Shown here piece after piece: positions 21,183 to 32,289 of a DNA stretch of 32,890 nt. Origin of the DNA: an uncultured Actinomycetes bacterium (lineage in GTDB: Bacteria; Actinomycetota; Thermoleophilia; RBG-16-64-13). The notes under the pieces were generated by a model. It saw only the letters and a program-made list of their open reading frames with translations, did not search any database and was not told where the DNA came from. The stretch spans positions 1 through 32,890 of the forward strand of contig CAIQPS010000134.1 of the NCBI GenBank assembly GCA_903873715.1, given 5' to 3'. The translations under genes and the position numbers were made by a program. Numbering within the stretch: the stretch's first letter is position 1; every line of letters starts with the position of its first letter.

Positions 21183-22250
21183 ATGCCAAGCGCCTACTAC
21201 ACCTGCAACCTGCTGCCCCTGGAACTCGTGGCCCGCGCCGGATTCGACCCGCGCTGGCTCGGAGAGCACCTCCAGGACCCTGGGGCGCCGGCCCGCCGGG
21301 ACGCGCTTAGCATCCATCCCATGACCTGCCCGTACGTCACCCGCCTCGTGACGGCCGCGGACGCCCTTTTCGACGAAGCCACCGATGGGGACGTGCTCCT
21401 GGTGCCCGGCGGCTGCGACGCCATGCGGCGCCTGGGCGACCTGATGGCGGCCACGTATCCCGGCCGGGTGTTCGTCGTGCCGTTGGGACGGTCGGCCGGC
21501 GACCACGCCGCGGAGGATCTGGCGGTGGAACTGGCCCGGCTGGATACCTGGCTGCGCGATAAGGGCGGTGCCGCGCGTGGCGCGGATGTGCCCGGCGGCG
21601 CGGCTGCGAGCGGCGCTGACGCGCCTGGCGCCGCAGGCGAAGCCGGCGGCGCCCCCACCCCGGTCAAAGAACTCCCCAAGGTCGAATATCCGGCGGCGCC
21701 CAGGCCCGGCGGCGTCTTCGTGGTCGCGGGACCGCTCACCGACAACTCCCTGCTCACCCTCATCGAGCGCTTGGGCGCTACGGTGTCGGGTCTCGAGTCC
21801 TGCACGTCGCCCGACCGGTGGAGGCCGCTGGCCGCCGCCGGCGAAGCCGCCGCTGCGGCCGACCCCGACTCATACCTGGCCCTTGCCCGGCAGATCCTGG
21901 ATCTCGGGATGTGCCCCCGCCGCTCCACCGTGGAGCGCCGCGCCCATCTGGCTCTGCGTCTCGACGAGAGCAGACCGTCCTCGGTCATCTACGCCCGCCA
22001 GAGCTTCTGCGATCCCGGAGCGTACGACGCGGTGCTGGTCGCGGAACTGGCGGAGGAGCGCGGGCTCCCCTACCTGGAGATCGAGGTGGGATTCCCGTTC
22101 GAGGCCAGCGGTCCGCTGCACACCCGCGTCGAGGCCTTCCTCGAGGCCCAACTCTTGGACGACGACCTGCTCGACGATCTGGACGAGTTGCTGGACGATG
22201 ATCTCTTGAGCGACGAGTCGCTCGACGACCTCCTGGACGAGGAGGACTAG
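21183..22250 (+). CDS. 2-hydroxyacyl-CoA dehydratase-family subunit (HgdB/FldC type), small subunit
   Basis: 355 residues. Family cysteines occur in the expected order: YYTCNLLPLELV, HPMTCPYVT, PGGCDAMRRLGDLM and SFCDPGAY, candidate ligands for a [4Fe-4S] cluster. Family members remove water from (R)-2-hydroxyacyl-CoA or reduce benzoyl-CoA by radical chemistry. Two unusual parts: an Ala/Gly-rich insertion (about 21565-21660) before KVEYPAAPRPGGVFVV, and a C-terminal tail of about 30 residues made almost only of Asp, Leu and Glu. The earlier in-frame start at 20970 is rejected because it runs through the divergent control region and the SRPBCC gene. Its TAG is directly followed by the ATG of the second subunit. 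Confidence 0.82.
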   Translation: MPSAYYTCNLLPLELVARAGFDPRWLGEHLQDPGAPARRDALSIHPMTCPYVTRLVTAADALFDEATDGDVLLVPGGCDAMRRLGDLMAATYPGRVFVVPLGRSAGDHAAEDLAVELARLDTWLRDKGGAARGADVPGGAAASGADAPGAAGEAGGAPTPVKELPKVEYPAAPRPGGVFVVAGPLTDNSLLTLIERLGATVSGLESCTSPDRWRPLAAAGEAAAAADPDSYLALARQILDLGMCPRRSTVERRAHLALRLDESRPSSVIYARQSFCDPGAYDAVLVAELAEERGLPYLEIEVGFPFEASGPLHTRVEAFLEAQLLDDDLLDDLDELLDDDLLSDESLDDLLDEED

Positions 22251-23492
22251 ATGCCCGGCATGGCCGACGTCACCGGCAACACCCTGAACGCAGCCCTCAT
22301 CCGGACCGCGTTCCTCGCGTCGATGCGGTTGAAGGCGCTGCAGAACCGCACCGCCCATTCCTATCTGATGATGCACAGCCTGGCCGCCTCGCTCGAGATG
22401 TTCAAGCCGGGCGCCATCGTTCCCTGGGTCTCGTACCTCTTCCCCACCGAGATCCTGAGTTCCTACGGCATCACCCCGATGATCCCGGAGATCGGCTCCG
22501 CCACCATAACGGGCAGCGATCTGCGGGAAGCCGCCGAAGCCGCCGCCGCACGGATGGCTCTCGCCCGCGACGTCTGCAGCTACCATCGCACCGCGCTCGC
22601 GTCGGTGGAGAACGACATGCTCCCCGCACCCACGATGTGCCTCGGCACCACGCCCCTCTGCCTGGGCAAGGAGATGCTCCTGGAGATGCTCGCGGTGCGG
22701 CACGACGTGCCGTTCCGGGAGATCCGGGTGCCCCTGCCTCCGGACGAGGGCGAGTCGTCCCCGGAAGTCGTCGCCGACGTGGCCGAGCAGATCCGGGTGC
22801 TGCACGACGACATCGGCCGCTGGACCGGCCGCAAGCCCGACCTCAGAAAGGCCGTGGTGCTCTCCAACCGGGCGTCGAAGGCCTGGGGCGAGATCATGCG
22901 GGCCCGCCTGGCGGGCGAACTGGAACTGAACGGCCGCAAGACCTTCGCCCTCGTCTTCCTGGGCCAGTTGCTCTGGGGCACCGCGGAAGGCGCCAAGGAC
23001 TTCGAGCGGCTCCTCACCGAGCGGGGCCGCCGCGACCTCGTGGCCCCCACCCCACCGCCGGGCCGCCCGCTCAAGAAGTTGCTGTGGCTGCACACCGTGC
23101 CGCACCACGACCGCGAGATCTTCGACCTCATAGAGCAGCGCGGCGCCACGGTGACATTCGAAGAGATGGGCCAGATGCACGAGGACCTCATCGACCCGGA
23201 CGACCCGTTCCCGGGACTGGCCCGCCGCCTCACCGACCACACGCTCTGGGGCACCTCCGCGCGCCGGGCACGCCTCAACGTCGCCCTCGCCAAACGATTG
23301 AAGGTCGACGGCGTGGTGCACTTCAACCATTGGGGCTGCCGGCACGGCCTTGGTTCCGTCCCTGTGATCAGGGCGGCCTTCATGGAGGCCGGCATCCCGT
23401 TCCTCGCTATCGACGGCGACGCTCTGGCCCGGGGCGGCCCCAACCAGGAGAAGTCACTCCAGCAGATGGAGAGCTTCCTGGAACTGCTGTAG
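22251..23492 (+). CDS. 2-hydroxyacyl-CoA dehydratase-family subunit, large subunit
   Basis: 413 residues, family related to HgdA/HgdB and BcrB/BcrC. YLFPTEILSSYGITP, the Cys of DVCSYHR and PTMCLGTTPLC, and the C-terminal HWGCRHGLGSVPVIR followed by GIPFLAIDGDAL and the closing MESFLELL are family landmarks. It starts immediately after the stop of the first subunit, a sign of a two-subunit complex. The ATP-driven activator (HgdC/BadF type) that normally fires these enzymes is absent, so activation would need a gene elsewhere, or it is a double-cubane-type relative. Substrate unknown; the CoA-transferase at 27068-28864 offers a possible acyl-CoA source. Confidence 0.82.
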   Translation: MPGMADVTGNTLNAALIRTAFLASMRLKALQNRTAHSYLMMHSLAASLEMFKPGAIVPWVSYLFPTEILSSYGITPMIPEIGSATITGSDLREAAEAAAARMALARDVCSYHRTALASVENDMLPAPTMCLGTTPLCLGKEMLLEMLAVRHDVPFREIRVPLPPDEGESSPEVVADVAEQIRVLHDDIGRWTGRKPDLRKAVVLSNRASKAWGEIMRARLAGELELNGRKTFALVFLGQLLWGTAEGAKDFERLLTERGRRDLVAPTPPPGRPLKKLLWLHTVPHHDREIFDLIEQRGATVTFEEMGQMHEDLIDPDDPFPGLARRLTDHTLWGTSARRARLNVALAKRLKVDGVVHFNHWGCRHGLGSVPVIRAAFMEAGIPFLAIDGDALARGGPNQEKSLQQMESFLELL

Positions 23493-23505
23493 GCCGAGGT
23501 CCCGC

Positions 23506-24315
23506 ATGAGCGACGGCAAGGGCGCGAAAGACCTCTCCCAGGACCGCTTCGGCAAGTACGCCGCCAGTTATGTCGCGAGCCCACACCACGCGTCCGGCCC
23601 CGACCTGTGGCGGCTGGTGGAGTTGGCCGGCGAGCATCCCTCGTGGAAAGCCCTGGACATAGCGACCGGCGGCGGACACACCGCCCTGGCGATCGCACCA
23701 CACGTCGCCCACGTCGTCGCCAGCGACATCACCGAGCCCATGCTCGAAGCCGCCCGTGGGTTCATCCTCGGCAAGGGAGCAACCAATGTCGACTTCGCCC
23801 TGGCCGATGCCGAGGCCCTGCCTTTCTCAGACGAGAGCTTCGATCTGGTCACCTGCCGCATCGCGGCGCACCACTTCCCCGAACCGGCCCGCTTCTGTTC
23901 CGAGGTGCTGCGGGTGCTGCGCCCGATGGGCCTGTTCCTGTTCCAGGACCAGGTGACGCCGGAAGACGGGGAGGCCGCGGACTGGATCACCGGCTTCGAG
24001 AAGCGGCGCGACCCCAGCCACCAGTTCGCCCTGTCCGGCGCCGAATGGCTCCGCCTGCTCGGCGCCACCGGCTTCAGCGTGGAGACGGAGGACACCTTCG
24101 AGAAGCGCATCGACCTTCTGAAGTGGGTCTCCGACCAGGAGGGCACCGCCGAAGACCTTGAGGAACTGCGCGACCGCCTACGCCATATCCCGGCTTCAGC
24201 GCGGGATTGGATGCGCCCCACGGGCATCGACACCGGCAAGGCGGAGTTCAGCATCCACCACGTGGTGATCAGCGCCCGCAAGACCGGACTCGGCGACATG
24301 GGCGCCGGCTGCTAG
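23506..24315 (+). CDS. Class I SAM-dependent methyltransferase
   Basis: 269 residues, Methyltransf_11/UbiE-like. The SAM-binding loop is ALDIATGGGHTAL (GxGxG variant), then ASDITEPML (acidic residue for ribose), ADAEALPFSDESFDLV and the post-motif LRVLRPMGLFLFQD. N-terminal DRFGKYAASYVAS is the usual start of UbiE-type enzymes. It lies 13 nt behind the dehydratase subunit and is probably co-transcribed, so it may act on the same pathway; the substrate cannot be read. The stop TAG at 24313-24315 shares the palindrome CTAG with the stop of the opposing gene. Confidence 0.85.
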   Translation: MSDGKGAKDLSQDRFGKYAASYVASPHHASGPDLWRLVELAGEHPSWKALDIATGGGHTALAIAPHVAHVVASDITEPMLEAARGFILGKGATNVDFALADAEALPFSDESFDLVTCRIAAHHFPEPARFCSEVLRVLRPMGLFLFQDQVTPEDGEAADWITGFEKRRDPSHQFALSGAEWLRLLGATGFSVETEDTFEKRIDLLKWVSDQEGTAEDLEELRDRLRHIPASARDWMRPTGIDTGKAEFSIHHVVISARKTGLGDMGAGC

Positions 24316-25090: not shown

Positions 25091-25855
25091 ATGGCCGAGA
25101 CCGAACGCACCCTCGCCGTATTCATCGACTTCGAGAACCTGGCGATCGGCTTCAAGCACCGCCGCGGCGAGTTCGACATCCACAAGATCCTCGAGCGCCT
25201 CGTCGAGAAGGGCAAAGTCATCGTCAAGAAGGCGTACGCCGACTGGGGCGAGTACAAGCAATACACCAAGCCGCTCCACGAGAACGCCATCGAGCTCATC
25301 GAGATCCCACGGCGTTCCATGACCGGCAAGAACTCGGCGGACATCCGCCTGGCTGTCGACGCGATGGACCTGGCGTGGTCCAAGGAACACATCGACACCT
25401 TCGTCATCGTGTCCGGCGACTCCGACTTCTCTCCGCTGGTGTCCAAGCTCAAGGAGAACGGCAAACACGTCATCGGCTTGGGCATGAAGGCGTCCACCTC
25501 GGACCTTCTTGCGGGCAACTGCGACGAGTTCATCTTCTACGAGGACCTCGAGAAGCCGACGGTCATCCCGGCCGCGCCCGGCCCGGCGGCAGTGGAGGTC
25601 GAGCCCGAGAAGAAAGAGGTCTTCGACCTGCTGCTCGAGTCCATCGGAGCCCTCATCCGCGAGAACAAGGACCCCATCTTCGCCTCCATGGTCAAAGACA
25701 CCATGCAGCGCAAGAAGCCGTCGTTCAACGAGTCCGCCTACGGCTACCGCAGCTTCAGCAACGTGCTGCTCGACGCGGAGAAACGGGGCTTCATCAAGCT
25801 CCACCGCGACAAGAAGGCCGGCTGGACGTACGTCGTGGAGGGCTTCGTCGAGTAG
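25091..25855 (+). CDS. NYN-domain (LabA/DUF88) protein with OST-HTH domain
   Basis: 254 residues. The PIN-like NYN domain (residues 1-150) has three acidic sites: FIDFENL, NSADIRLAVDAMDL and SGDSDFSPL, the metal-binding set of these RNase-like domains. A Pro/Glu-rich linker is followed by an OST-HTH/LOTUS-type winged-helix domain (about 175-252, ending SFSNVLLDAEKRGFIKL and WTYVVEGF), which binds RNA in other proteins. Together they point to an RNA-processing or regulatory nuclease in the cytosol. ATG 25091 has AAGGAG about 14 nt upstream, somewhat far, so the start is less certain. Target RNA unknown. Confidence 0.87.
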   Translation: MAETERTLAVFIDFENLAIGFKHRRGEFDIHKILERLVEKGKVIVKKAYADWGEYKQYTKPLHENAIELIEIPRRSMTGKNSADIRLAVDAMDLAWSKEHIDTFVIVSGDSDFSPLVSKLKENGKHVIGLGMKASTSDLLAGNCDEFIFYEDLEKPTVIPAAPGPAAVEVEPEKKEVFDLLLESIGALIRENKDPIFASMVKDTMQRKKPSFNESAYGYRSFSNVLLDAEKRGFIKLHRDKKAGWTYVVEGFVE

Positions 25856-27067: not shown

Positions 27068-27838
27068 CTACCGCCCGATGACCACTTTCAGCGGGTCGAC
27101 CTCGTCGCGCAGGATGCGCAGCTCTTCCGCGGTCGGCGCTTCGGTGCGGCCGATCACGTCCGGGATGATGAGCTCGAAGCCGGTGTTCTCTTTCACCTGC
27201 TCGATCTCGACACCCGGGTTGAGCGAGACCACCATCATGGCCTTGGACTCGGGATGGAACTTCATGACCGCCAGGTCCGTGATGATCATGTAGGGGCCGC
27301 CCTCGGGCAGACCGGCCTCTTCGCGGGCGTTGCCGCCGGTGAGGAAGCCCGGGGAGGTGATGTAGTCGCACTTCTCGACGAAGCGGTCCTTGCTGTGGAC
27401 GGTCATGATCATCGTCCGCCAGCAGAGGGAGGCGAAGTCGTTGGCGCCGCCCGAGCCCGGGAACCGGACCTTCGGATGGCTGTAGTCACTGCCGACCATC
27501 GTCGAGTTGATGTTGCCGTACTTGTCGATCTGCGCGCCGCCGAGGAAGGCGTAGTCCACCATGCCGCGGGCGCAGGTGGTCATCATCTCGGACATGCCGG
27601 CAGCCATGATGGCCTTGTAGAAGGTCCGGGAGTCGCCCACGGAGATGGGCATGGACGGCAGCATCGGGGCCACGCCGCCGGCCTCGAACAGGATCACGAG
27701 GTTGGGCGAGCAGGTCTTCTGCGAGAGCATCGCGGCGGCACAGGGAGCGCCGGTGCCGACGGCCACGGTCTTCCCGTCTTCCAGGTTCCGCGCGGCCACG
27801 CAGATCATGAGTTCCATAGTGTTGTATTCAGGCGCCAT
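27068..27838 (-). CDS. CoA-transferase subunit B (glutaconate CoA-transferase type)
   Basis: 256 residues, a family I CoA-transferase beta-type subunit close in size to GctB (about 266). The likely catalytic Glu is E52 in VILFEAGGVAP, at the place of GctB Glu54. AFLGGAQIDKYGNINS and FPGSGGANDFAS are strongly conserved in this group. It shuttles CoA between acids, for example acetyl-CoA and a dicarboxylic acid; IpdB of steroid degradation is an alternative relative. ATG 27838 has GGAG-GAGAG upstream. It is 42 bp downstream of subunit A and ends at the intrinsic terminator. Confidence 0.88.
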   Translation of the reverse strand: MAPEYNTMELMICVAARNLEDGKTVAVGTGAPCAAAMLSQKTCSPNLVILFEAGGVAPMLPSMPISVGDSRTFYKAIMAAGMSEMMTTCARGMVDYAFLGGAQIDKYGNINSTMVGSDYSHPKVRFPGSGGANDFASLCWRTMIMTVHSKDRFVEKCDYITSPGFLTGGNAREEAGLPEGGPYMIITDLAVMKFHPESKAMMVVSLNPGVEIEQVKENTGFELIIPDVIGRTEAPTAEELRILRDEVDPLKVVIGR

Positions 27839-27880: not shown

Positions 27881-28864
27881 CTAGGCTTCGACCACGTTCT
27901 CGAGCTTCTGGAGTTCCTCCATGCGCTTGAGACCGCCGCATTTCTCGAGGTATTCCTCGAAGTTCGCGGAGCTGTAGATGTAGTGATCGAGGAACTTGGC
28001 GAAGGCTTCCGGGTCCTTCTCGACCTTGAGCCACTCGGCGAGGTGCGCTTCATCCGAGAAGTAGCAGTACGCCATGTTGCCCGGGTAGCTGCCGTACGGA
28101 GCTTCCACGACCGCGTCCACCATGTAGTACGGGATGGCGGTGATGGTGGGATTCTCGCGGATGATCGAGTTGCTCACGATCTTCTCGGCGGAGATGATGA
28201 GGTGCTTGGCCGCACGGGCCAGTTCCAGGTCGGCCACAGAGATGCCCTTGATGACACAGTTGCCGTACATGTCGGCTTCGTGCACGTGGATGGCCACGAC
28301 ATCAGGCCAGCACGCCGGGACGGCAGCGTACTTCTTGCCGGTGAACGGGCACTCGATGACCTTGGCGGCCGACATCTTGAAGGTGTCGGTGCCGAGGATG
28401 CTGCGGACGATCCCGAAGGAGACGCCCTCGGCGGCGGCTTTGAGGCGGACGTCGAGCGCGTAGTTGCTCCACTCGGTCAGCTTGAGTTTGCCGGCCTGCA
28501 CGTACTTGCGGGCGTTCGGCGAGAGGCCGCGGGCTTCGAGGCCTACGATGTAGGCGGCGTCGCAGCGGTCGATGCACTCGCCGGCGACCAGCAACTGGAA
28601 GTCGTGAGTGGAGGTGTGGCCGAGGAACCCGAGGTTCTTCTTCCTCTGGCGGATGATCTCGTGGATGATCATGCTGGGGATCCGGTTGGCGCCGAATCCG
28701 CCTGCCGCGAAGTAGTCCCCGTCGTGGACGAACTTCTCGACGGCTTCCTTCTCGGTCATCCGTTTGTCGACCATGGCCCGGGACTTCTGGCGGAAGAACT
28801 CGCGGGCCTTGTCCGGATCCGGATCCGTGAAGATCGGGTTGATACCCTGGTCTAGCACTTCCAT
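27881..28864 (-). CDS. CoA-transferase subunit A (glutaconate CoA-transferase type)
   Basis: 327 residues, close to GctA (about 320). FVHDGDYFAAGGFGANRIP contains the CoA-binding loop of the family, followed by LGFLGHTSTHDFQLLV and DVVAIHVHEADMYGNCVIKG. Forms a heteromer with the next gene's product. ATG 28864 has GGAGAGG 4 nt upstream, which excludes the upstream frame to 28993. Together with the dehydratase-family genes at 21183-23492 it recalls the hydroxyglutarate route of glutamate fermentation (Gct plus Hgd), but the two loci are several kb apart, so the link is inferred. Confidence 0.88.
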   Translation of the reverse strand: MEVLDQGINPIFTDPDPDKAREFFRQKSRAMVDKRMTEKEAVEKFVHDGDYFAAGGFGANRIPSMIIHEIIRQRKKNLGFLGHTSTHDFQLLVAGECIDRCDAAYIVGLEARGLSPNARKYVQAGKLKLTEWSNYALDVRLKAAAEGVSFGIVRSILGTDTFKMSAAKVIECPFTGKKYAAVPACWPDVVAIHVHEADMYGNCVIKGISVADLELARAAKHLIISAEKIVSNSIIRENPTITAIPYYMVDAVVEAPYGSYPGNMAYCYFSDEAHLAEWLKVEKDPEAFAKFLDHYIYSSANFEEYLEKCGGLKRMEELQKLENVVEA

Positions 28865-29160: not shown

Positions 29161-29913
29161 CTACCGGCCGGAGCGCAGCGCCTCGGCCAGCCCCCCGGGA
29201 AGTCCCGCGGCGATCATCGCCGAGCACACCGCTTCGACGTCGTATGCCACCCGCACCGCCTCGGCGCTCAAGCCGGCCGCCGCGCCGGCGGCGGTCTCAG
29301 GCCCGGTCCCTCCGACCTCCCGCAGCACCGTGTACATCGCCCGCGAGTCGCCGTCCTTGGGACGCCCGACCGACCCCGCGGCCACGAACAACACTCCCCC
29401 ATACGGGCGAGCCCACTGCTCGTGGGTGTGGCCGAAGGCCAGCGCCTGGTCCATCGCCTCGGCCGCCAGACGGAGGAACGTCGCCTCTTCACGGTCGCGC
29501 AGCAGGTACTCGTTGATGCGCCGGGGACTGCCGTGCACCAGGTGGACAGACGCGCCGCCCGCGGAGACGTGCCGGTCGCGAGGCAGGGAGCGCAGGAACG
29601 CCTTCCTCTCGGGTGTCACCTCTGCGGCCGTGAAGGCGTACGAGGCGGCCCCCATCCGCTCGGCCTCGGGCGTCGCGTAGAAGCAACCGCAGTCGCCGGT
29701 GTCGCGGCCGATGCCGTCGTCATAGTTGCCCAGGACCACGGGGATTCCCGCGTCGCGGATGATGTCTATCACGCCGTTGGGGTCCGGGCCGTAGCCCACC
29801 AGGTCGCCCAAGCAGTAGGTCTGACCGATGCCCCGGAGGGCTATGTCGGCCAGCACCGCTTCCAGAGCGAGCCGGTTTCCGTGGATGTCCGAGATGAGGG
29901 CGCAGGAGGCCAT
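29161..29913 (-). CDS. Calcineurin-like metallophosphoesterase
   Basis: 250 residues. The dinuclear-metal motifs are in order: SDIHGN (DxH), LGDLVGYGP (GDxxxxG), LGNYDD (GNxD with Tyr for His), HLVHGSPR and AFGHTHEQW (GHxH). It belongs to the YfcE/MJ0936-like phosphodiesterases or protein phosphatases; the substrate is unknown. ATG 29913 lies 4 nt beyond the arsM stop, so it is the third gene of the acr3-arsM unit, an uncommon member of arsenic operons. An Ala/Gly-rich stretch (ETAAGAAAGLSAEA) lies near the C-terminus. Confidence 0.87.
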   Translation of the reverse strand: MASCALISDIHGNRLALEAVLADIALRGIGQTYCLGDLVGYGPDPNGVIDIIRDAGIPVVLGNYDDGIGRDTGDCGCFYATPEAERMGAASYAFTAAEVTPERKAFLRSLPRDRHVSAGGASVHLVHGSPRRINEYLLRDREEATFLRLAAEAMDQALAFGHTHEQWARPYGGVLFVAAGSVGRPKDGDSRAMYTVLREVGGTGPETAAGAAAGLSAEAVRVAYDVEAVCSAMIAAGLPGGLAEALRSGR

Positions 29914-29917
29914 CCGG

Positions 29918-30766
29918 CTACGGCTTCACCGCCGTGATGGACGACGAGAGCACGTATTCCTCGAGCTTGGTCCAGGGTTTCCAGTCGCGGATGAATTCCT
30001 TGCTCTCGTCCTTGGGGCTGATCGAGATGTCCGTGAACCCGGCCTCGCCCAGCAGGCTCTCCAGTTCCGGCACCGACGAGGCCCCGGCCACGCAACTGCA
30101 GACCAGGTCCATGTCCTTCAGCCAGTCGGCCGGGAACGGAGCCACCCGGACGACGTCGCTCACGGCTATCCGGCCGCCCGGCTTGAGCACCCGGAACGCC
30201 TCGCGGAACACCGCCGGTTTGTCCGGAGACAGGTTGATCACGCAGTTGGAGATGATCACGTCGACGGCGTTGTCTGCCACCGGAAGGTGTTCGATCTCAC
30301 CCAGCCGGAAGTCCACGTTGTTCTTGCCCGACGACCGGGCGAGCTCACGGGACCGGGCGACCATCTCCGGGGTCATGTCCACGCCGATGGCCATCCCGGT
30401 CGGACCGATGGCCCGGGCCGCCAGGAAGCAGTCGAACCCTGCGCCCGACCCCAGGTCGAGCACCACTTCTCCGGCTTTGAGCGCGGCGATGGCCTGCGGG
30501 TTGCCGCAGCCCAGACCCAGGTTGGCGCCTTCCGGCGCTTCGGCCAACTCCTCCACGCTGTACCCGAGCTGACGAGAGATCTCGTCCTGGTCGGCCGCCG
30601 CCTGGGGCGCCGCCGTGCCGCAGCAACTCGATGTCTGCGCGGTCGCGGCCGGAGCGGCCGTCTCCCCACAACACGAGCCGCCGCCCGGGATGCCGTTCTC
30701 CACGATGCCCGCGTACCGGTCGCGCACCGCTTTACGTACCTGATCCTGCTCCTGGCTCTGAGCCAT
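29918..30766 (-). CDS. arsM: Arsenite S-adenosylmethionine methyltransferase
   Basis: 282 residues. SAM loop VLDLGSGAGFDCF; the three arsenic-binding Cys are in LGLGCGNPQ, ISNCVINL and CSCVAGASS, matching Cys72, Cys174 and Cys224 of characterised ArsM. It methylates As(III) to methyl and dimethyl species. The N-terminus carries two extra vicinal Cys pairs (GSCCGE and SSCCGT) in an Ala-rich region, common in some ArsM proteins and perhaps As-loading. ATG 30766 has GGAG 8 nt upstream; the GTG at 30775, which overlaps the acr3 TGA, is an alternative. It sits between acr3 and a metallophosphoesterase. Confidence 0.93.
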   Translation of the reverse strand: MAQSQEQDQVRKAVRDRYAGIVENGIPGGGSCCGETAAPAATAQTSSCCGTAAPQAAADQDEISRQLGYSVEELAEAPEGANLGLGCGNPQAIAALKAGEVVLDLGSGAGFDCFLAARAIGPTGMAIGVDMTPEMVARSRELARSSGKNNVDFRLGEIEHLPVADNAVDVIISNCVINLSPDKPAVFREAFRVLKPGGRIAVSDVVRVAPFPADWLKDMDLVCSCVAGASSVPELESLLGEAGFTDISISPKDESKEFIRDWKPWTKLEEYVLSSSITAVKP

Positions 30767-30771
30767 CCTGC

Positions 30772-31836
30772 TCACTCCTCTCTCACGCCTTCGGCGGCGG
30801 GCGCCGCCTGCGGCCAGTATTTACGCTGGAAGTAGAGGGCCACGTTCACCAGCCCTATCAGCACGGGCACCTCCACCAGAGGCCCGATGACCGTCGCGAA
30901 CGCCTGGTCGGAGTTCAGTCCGAACACCGCCACCGCCACCGCGATGGCCAGTTCGAAGTTGTTCGACGACGCGGTGAAGGACAGAGTGGCGCTCTTCGAA
31001 TAGTCAGCCCCGACCCGCTTGCCCATCCAGAAGCTCACGAAGAACATCACCACGAAGTACACGAGCAGCGGGATGGCCACCCGCACCACGTCCAAGGGCA
31101 GCCTGACGATGTATTCCCCTTTGAGGGAGAACATCACCAAGATAGTGAACAGCAGCGCGATGAGCGTGATGGGGCTTATCCGCGGGATGAACTCGCCGTG
31201 ATACCAATCCTTGCTCTTGAAACGCAGCAGGACGAAGCGGGTGATGACGCCGGCCGCGAACGGGATGCCCAGGTAGATACCCACGCTCCTCGCGATCTGC
31301 GCCATGCTCACATGCACCTGCGCCTGCTCGAGGCCCAGCCAGCCGGGAAGCACGGTCAGGAACACGTAGGCGTAGACGGAGTAGAAGAGCACCTGGAACA
31401 CGGAGTTGAGCGCCACGAGCCCCGCCGCGTATTCGCTGTCGCCCTTAGCGAGCTCGTTCCACACGATGACCATGGCGATGCAGCGGGCAAGTCCCATGAG
31501 GATGACGCCCTGCATGTAGCCCGGCATGTCGAACAGCAGGAGGACGGCCAGGAAGAACATGATGATGGGCCCTATCACCCAGTTCTGCACGAGTGAGAGC
31601 CCCAACACCCGCCAGTTGCGGAACACCTCGCCCAGCTCCTCGTAGCGCACCTTGGCGAGGGGCGGATACATCATCACGATGAGCCCCACCGCTATGGGGA
31701 TGGACGTCGTCCCGATGGATGCACTCTGTATGGCCTTGCCGATCTGCGGCCAGACATATCCGGCACCGACCCCTATGGCCATGGCCAGGAAGATCCACAA
31801 CGTCAGATAGCGATCGAGAAAAGAAAGGCGTTTCAT
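30772..31836 (-). CDS. acr3: Arsenite efflux transporter, ACR3 family
   Basis: 354 residues, inner-membrane protein with about ten hydrophobic helices. The conserved [11 protein letters not shown] segment contains the Cys required in ACR3 proteins; [14 protein letters not shown] and VQNWVIGP are also typical. It exports As(OH)3 driven by the proton gradient and needs no ATPase. ATG 31836 is first in a three-gene unit whose promoter lies 40 to 70 bp upstream. Its TGA overlaps the GTG codon 9 nt before the arsM ATG. Confidence 0.94.
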
Positions 31837-31877
31837 TGGGCCCGTCCCTGGATGAGTGGTGGCCTCCGCACAGCGTT

Positions 31878-31906
31878 ATGATAGGACTGCGACAGCACGT
31901 ATGCAA
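31878..31906 (-). promoter_or_regulatory. acr3-arsM operon promoter
   Basis: On the minus strand TTGCAT (31901-31906), a 17-bp spacer and TATCAT (31878-31883). The -35 lies directly beside the ArsR dyad, so one bound repressor could block both directions. Confidence 0.6.
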
Positions 31907-31907
31907 G

Positions 31908-31929
31908 TAACCGCTTACACGGTTATAAT
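31908..31929 (+). promoter_or_regulatory. arsR promoter with overlapping ArsR operator
   Basis: TATAAT (31924-31929), a perfect -10, is overlapped by the dyad TAACCG-CTTACA-CGGTTA (31908-31925), the likely ArsR site. Its -35 (ATGCAA) is weak. The -10 ends 9 nt before ATG 31939, so the mRNA is close to leaderless. Confidence 0.65.
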
Positions 31930-31938
31930 GGAGACACG

Positions 31939-32289
31939 ATGGCTCTATCCGCTCGCACATTGGCCTCCGTCTACAAGGCGCTCGCCGACGAGACGCGCAT
32001 CCAGATGCTCGCCCTCCTGCTGGAACAGCCGGAACTGTGCGTCTGCCATTTGGAGAGGGCGCTCGAGATCACCCAGTCGAAGGCGTCGCGCCACCTGCGC
32101 TATCTCTTGAACGCCGGGCTGTTGGAGGACCGCCGCGAGGGCGTGTGGATGCACTACCGCCTGGCCCCCGGTATGCCGCCGGAGCTCCGTTCTCTTGTCG
32201 AAGCGGTGGGTGCCAGCCTGGATCCCGCCGTGCTCGCCGACCTGCGGGCCAAGCTCGACACGTCCATCTGCACGCCGGTGGCCTGCTAG
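31939..32289 (+). CDS. arsR: ArsR-family arsenite-responsive repressor
   Basis: 116 residues. Winged helix-turn-helix with ALADETRIQMLALL, then the metal-sensing ELCVCHLERAL (CxC in helix 3, the As(III) site of ArsR), recognition helix SKASRHLRYLLNAGLL, and wing RREGVWMHYRLAP. The C-terminal Cys in ICTPVAC may be further ligands. It represses its own gene and the divergent acr3 unit until As(III) binds. Its TAG shares CTAG with the stop of the opposing gene. Confidence 0.93.
   Translation: MALSARTLASVYKALADETRIQMLALLLEQPELCVCHLERALEITQSKASRHLRYLLNAGLLEDRREGVWMHYRLAPGMPPELRSLVEAVGASLDPAVLADLRAKLDTSICTPVAC

Follow-up and report, generated by a model that had tools for sequence, protein, structure and literature searches.

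The window that we have analysed, i.e., the whole stretch of 32,890 nucleotides, is the full contig C134 of an uncultured Actinomycetes genome (G000; 3.33 Mb in 169 contigs, 96.9% complete), with uncultured Actinomycetota MAGs among its near kin. It carries two directly adjacent genes of the PF06050 (HGD-D) family, and the features of interest are as follows.

21183..22250, + strand: small subunit, 355 aa, PF06050; BzdN/DCCP-like, predicted [8Fe-9S] double-cubane subunit
21204 (C8), 21327 (C49), 21414 (C78), 21801 (C207), 21912 (C244) and 22008 (C276), + strand: small-subunit ligand codons, from the alignment to BzdN
21567..21677, + strand: Ala/Gly-rich linker, small-subunit residues 129-165, of variable length in orthologues
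22152..22247, + strand: acidic Asp/Leu C-terminal tail, small-subunit residues 324-355, conserved in kind in orthologues
22251..23492, + strand: large subunit, 413 aa, PF06050; predicted catalytic [4Fe-4S] subunit
22575 (C109), 22659 (C137) and 23337 (C363), + strand: large-subunit ligand codons, from the alignment to BzdO/HadB
23506-24315: SAM methyltransferase, a real gene downstream of the pair
27068..27838, - strand: GctB-like CoA-transferase subunit, best PDB match 1poi_B (168.7 bits)
27881..28864, - strand: GctA-like CoA-transferase subunit, best PDB match 1poi_A (135.7 bits)

The first-pass annotation had placed the pair in this family with a zero-gap junction between the genes, and its coordinates, junction and family are all correct. 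The small-subunit gene starts with the ATG at 21183 and ends with the stop codon at 22248-22250, the large-subunit gene begins with the ATG at 22251 (a gap of 0), and the two products score 83.8 and 151.8 bits against PF06050, where the gathering cut-off is 28.4. According to a profile search of the whole genome, this is the only PF06050 pair in G000. For the NCBIfam equivalogs of double-cubane proteins (DCCPs), BzdN, HadB and HadC, the pair scores far under the cut-offs.

Family cysteines had been claimed for both subunits, and we have found six in the small and three in the large subunit, all of them kept in relatives. In a profile alignment, C8, C49, C78, C207, C244 and C276 of the small subunit correspond one-to-one to C36, C73, C100, C263, C293 and C327 of BzdN, which are the ligands of its [8Fe-9S] cluster (PMC11971306). 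None of the six varies among the complete orthologues or the distant small subunits that we checked, while in the same alignment HadC is without two of them (the equivalents of C8 and C207) and MbdN without three. From this ligand pattern, the small subunit is predicted to hold an [8Fe-9S] double cubane, and the earlier label "dehydratase-like" is doubtful for this subunit, since the six-cysteine pattern is that of BzdN and DCCPs and not of HadC. By profile, the small subunit is closest to DCCP (112 bits). Equivalog scores are 51.4 bits for NF040772 of the DCCPs (cut-off 350) and 24.3 bits for TIGR03190 of BzdN (cut-off 453.8). The AlphaFold model, built on a shallow alignment, is of moderate quality (pLDDT 70.0, pTM 0.68), and with it the best Foldseek match is BzdN (8s02_B, TM 0.60). 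The Ala-rich insertion noticed earlier is also present; it is a variable-length Ala/Gly-rich linker in the orthologues and is disordered in the model (pLDDT <50 for residues 130-170).

In the large subunit, Cys109, Cys137 and Cys363 correspond to C95, C128 and C380 of BzdO and are conserved in relatives; this subunit is accordingly listed above as the predicted carrier of the catalytic [4Fe-4S] cluster, with three Cys ligands. In addition, W59 and E80 sit at the positions of Trp46 and Glu65 of BzdO. The BzdO residue His131 is not conserved, its position in the alignment being K140, and the family has specific residues of its own, H112 and N359-H360-W361 (the NHWGC motif). His112 is invariant and close to the first ligand, and His360, near the third ligand, is found in 19 of 20 members. 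The profile scores are tied between HadB (93.5 bits) and BzdO (93.6 bits), and the BzdO equivalog TIGR03191 has no match in G000. The AlphaFold (AF2) model is again from a shallow alignment (pLDDT 80.6, pTM 0.83), and Foldseek brings up HadB, MbdO and BzdO at TM 0.74-0.77, with HadB as the best.

We have placed both subunits in a tree of 60 rows (IQ-TREE, LG+C20; HgdAB and FldBC are not among the rows, and the small-subunit row for the distant relative L131 is a DCCP homologue and not its true small subunit, which is an ATPase fusion). One clade (support 98/96) holds the window-type large subunits together with those of 15 distant relatives, apart from BzdO, HadB, MbdO and the c29 proteins (100/99). 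Likewise, the small subunits form one clade (99/95) apart from BzdN, HadC, MbdN and the c17 proteins (95/79), and the DCCPs are separate. Within its own lineage, the window type has long branches. The pair thus does not fall inside a characterised clade but in a supported clade of its own outside BCR/MBR/HAD and DCCP. A simple BzdNO or HadBC orthologue is rejected by the equivalog scores and the tree. The earlier suggestion of a two-subunit enzyme with perhaps a new substrate agrees with this placement, i.e., within the BCR/HAD superfamily and outside every characterised clade that could be tested. The 3-methylbenzoyl-CoA reductase (MbdONPQ, PDB 9g87/9gai) has the superfamily fold in common with the pair and is also a heterodimer with two ATPase subunits, but it differs in the incomplete cysteine set of MbdN and belongs to a separate clade.

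The wider lineage appears in 61 of the 396 Actinomycetota genomes sampled, a count for which the search profile already included distant members and in which some weaker matches may be other branches, and also in at least one Clostridia genome. No published description of it was found in the open-access literature, most subscription papers lying outside this search. A contig of an Elusimicrobia MAG (L013) carries a 76% identical pair, likely through misbinning or transfer.

As the small subunit matches DCCP best, the pair might be a DCCP-like double-cubane reductase of small molecules that acts on no CoA thioester. Indeed, known DCCPs reduce acetylene, hydrazine and azide (PMC11971306), and the DCCP structures (PDB 6eno/7yyl) have in common with our case the six-cysteine [8Fe-9S] pattern of the small subunit and a BadF-type ATPase partner. 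DCCPs, however, are homodimers with a double cubane in each monomer, whereas the window encodes two unlike subunits, the large one with three ligand cysteines only. Together with the separate DCCP clade and the CoA-transferase genes that are the conserved neighbours (see below), this makes the DCCP-like reading very improbable.

The enzyme had also been described as lacking an activator. For the neighbourhood this holds, as the window has no PF01869 activator gene, but for the genome it does not: there are four PF01869 domains in G000 on two other contigs, in two genes on C160 and in one 1042-aa protein, with a DUF2229 domain, on C75. The gene order on C160 is a TetR-like regulator (assigned by eye), KorA, KorB, KorC, a BzdP-like ATPase, BzdQ, a ferredoxin and a Fer2/Fer4 protein. 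BzdQ passes its equivalog (TIGR03192, 418.3 bits against a cut-off of 380.2), and so does KorA (478 against 411). Both cluster-type cysteines are present in the sequence of the BzdP-like ATPase, which gets no equivalog call as BcrA, BcrD or BzdQ. The search for an activator elsewhere in the genome, proposed with the first-pass annotation, has therefore found one, and the idea of a missing activator is rejected: the BzdQ equivalog with its BzdP-like partner and the KorABC/ferredoxin genes co-occur with the pair. Most likely, the ATP-driven electron pump of the pair is encoded elsewhere in the same genome. The C75 protein (L018:8245-11373; two BcrAD_BadFG domains plus DUF2229) probably serves another system, since long proteins of this kind occur across the class, even in genomes without an HGD-D protein.

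Among 18 genomes of the family, the pair and the C160-type ATPase occur together in 12, the ATPase occurs alone in one (G015, 87% complete), and five have neither. Here orthologues were counted at identities of at least 53% for the large subunit and at least 74% for the ATPase, and in G013 (64% complete) the ATPase was counted from a 67% fragment at a contig end. The hypergeometric p value of this co-occurrence is 0.0007, which ignores the relatedness of the genomes. In G000, G008 and G010 no PF06050 protein other than the pair was found; therefore, the only PF06050 proteins that the ATPase pair could serve there are those of the window-type pair. G000 carries the pair and the ATPase on different contigs, and wherever both were located in a family genome, their loci are separate. 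Distant members of the lineage give a more direct view of this partnership: the small subunit and a BadF-type ATPase share one reading frame (L015:11122-12909 and L131:10555-12195, the latter also with the six cysteines) or are encoded side by side (L133). On the other hand, the ATPases of G003, G005, G011 and G012 are not dedicated to the window-type pair, because their genes sit with those of a different HGD-D pair (c17/c29), together with genes for an enoyl-CoA hydratase and a CoA ligase; in G005 they are also found directly beside true BzdNO.

Two of these clusters can be described further. At L094:11202-17286, the actinobacterial MAG G005 has a bzdNOPQ cluster with a true BzdO (584 bits), a ferredoxin and a Fer2/Fer4 protein. 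At L092:12247-18261, and likewise at L093-L095, the unassigned c17/c29 HGD-D pair, an enoyl-CoA hydratase, a ketopantoate-reductase-like protein and a CoA ligase are located beside BzdPQ.

For the C-terminal tail of the small subunit, said earlier to be some 30 residues of Asp and Leu only, the length is right (32 residues) and the "only" is not, as the composition is 14 D, 12 L, 4 E and 2 S. In the orthologues, an LDDDLL-like core past the last helix is followed by few to about 30 residues, the length varying freely. An acidic end of the DLF type is also present in the Fer2/Fer4 Fe-S protein (as read in its orthologues), in c61 and in the BzdN of G005, and the BzdN of strain CIB ends in SEEELF. 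With a regular expression for the acidic motif, drawn up after some tails had been seen, 11 of 372 called genes near these loci were matched, all of them encoding the small subunit, the Fe-S protein, c61 or BzdN (the BzdN match was unforeseen), against 0 of 197 genes in other loci. A mere low-complexity accident is unlikely, because the acidic D/L/F character of the tail persists in the orthologues and partner proteins have the motif as well. Judging from the sequences, the DLL/DLF tail probably serves to dock a shared partner in the electron-transfer module. The c61 protein itself is small (86-92 aa) and unannotated, with genes adjoining those for the ATPase and ferredoxin (L092:9715-9975 and L094:10900-11178).

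With the tail and the electron module in view, the pair resembles the BZD-type class I benzoyl-CoA reductase of Aromatoleum sp. CIB (BzdNOPQ) in several respects: a heterodimer of a predicted double-cubane subunit and a three-cysteine [4Fe-4S] subunit, the Trp and Glu at W59 and E80, a BzdQ-equivalog ATPase with a BzdP-like neighbour and Kor in the genome, and an acidic C-terminus, ending in LF in BzdN. It might then be a divergent reductase of benzoyl-CoA, or of a substituted benzoyl-CoA, that replaces BzdNO in this lineage. We regard this as improbable. The pair is outside the BzdN/BzdO clade, the score for BzdN is 24.3 against 453.8 bits with no BzdO match, and the large subunit has no equivalent of His131 but carries the family-specific His112 and NHWGC. 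Unlike in BzdNOPQ, the catalytic and ATPase genes of the window type are apart. Furthermore, the Oah equivalog is absent from G000 as well as from G001, G006, G008, G010, G015, G016 and G017, which argues against a classical benzoyl-CoA pathway in G000.

The genes around the pair point to its substrate class. The methyltransferase gene had been taken as a sign of a shared pathway; the gene is real, but the link fails, since no orthologue lies at the pair locus in any of 11 relatives (0/11), and we regard it as a local neighbour. Better conserved are the GctA- and GctB-like genes, which are syntenic with the catalytic pair in six genomes. Orthologues of the GctA-like subunit, 73-83% identical, are located beside the pair in five relatives, and GctB orthologues (79% identity or more) are confined to genomes that have the pair; E52 of the GctB-like subunit aligns with the catalytic Glu position. 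Several relatives have one or two further CoA-transferase pairs upstream. These conserved CoA-transferase neighbours point to a CoA-thioester substrate.

2-Hydroxyacyl-CoA dehydratases classically work with a CoA-transferase of the GctAB type, and the best match of the neighbouring genes is glutaconate CoA-transferase (1poi). The main rival reading is accordingly a dehydratase, in which the GctAB-like enzyme would give CoA to a 2-hydroxy acid, e.g., (R)-2-hydroxyglutarate, and the pair would remove water through a ketyl radical after one-electron activation by the C160 ATPase. HadBC (PDB 3o3m) and HgdAB have in common with the pair the fold, the heterodimer and the three-cysteine [4Fe-4S] large subunit, besides the CoA-transferase nearby. 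Dehydration is also favoured by the fold of the large subunit, which matches HadB best, by the profile tie between HadB and BzdO, by the missing BzdO His131 and by the lack of an Oah equivalog in G000. Nevertheless, we consider this reading unlikely, though less so than those discussed above. The small subunit has six cluster cysteines, two of which (at the C8 and C207 positions) HadC is without, the tree places the pair outside the HadB/HadC clade, and G000 has an ATPase pair of the BzdP/Q type rather than a single adjacent HgdC. The presence of another ATPase and of Kor next to the BzdQ equivalog fits a stoichiometric electron supply better than a catalytic activation.

Given the ligands for a double cubane and the dedicated supply of electrons, we favour reduction over dehydration. 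We put at about 0.6 the probability that the two subunits form the catalytic heterodimer of an Fe-S enzyme that depends on ATP, works at very low potential, belongs to a BCR/HAD superfamily lineage separate from BCR, MBR, HAD and DCCP, and reduces a CoA thioester. In such a reductase, a 2-oxoacid would reduce ferredoxin via KorABC, and the BzdP/BzdQ-like ATPase of C160 would energise the electrons by ATP hydrolysis. These would then pass to the [8Fe-9S] double cubane of the small subunit and on to the large subunit, whose open-coordinated [4Fe-4S] cluster would reduce the CoA-thioester substrate. Formation or recycling of this thioester is probably the task of the GctAB-like CoA-transferase. 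In this scheme the cluster types, the electron path, the role of the tail and the reduction itself are what we infer from the homology, ligand cysteines, clade and co-occurrence observed above.

A more specific proposal, which we hold tentatively and at somewhat less than even odds, is that uncultured Actinomycetota and at least one Clostridia genome harbour a third heterodimeric BCR/HAD lineage, which would have kept the double cubane, would use ATP to reduce a CoA thioester that is not a benzoyl-CoA, and would use its acidic tail to dock a separately encoded BzdPQ/Kor module. In PMC11971306, BzdNO is called the first double-cubane enzyme for which a catabolic role has been defined. Were a heterodimer lineage apart from it to combine these cluster ligands with other active-site surroundings (His131 absent, His112 invariant), the chemistry that can be reached below the normal biological redox window would become wider; the proteins also form a defined set for testing. 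The case further shows that the absence of an activator nearby need not mean that there is no activator, as the pump can sit at another locus.

Two further observations concern the rest of the window. A NYN-domain protein (25091-25855) is 80-93% identical in relatives and follows the pair in every locus that is long enough, and its function looks unrelated to the pair. At 29161-32289 lies an arsenic cassette consisting of ArsR, Acr3 and the arsenite methyltransferase ArsM together with a phosphoesterase.
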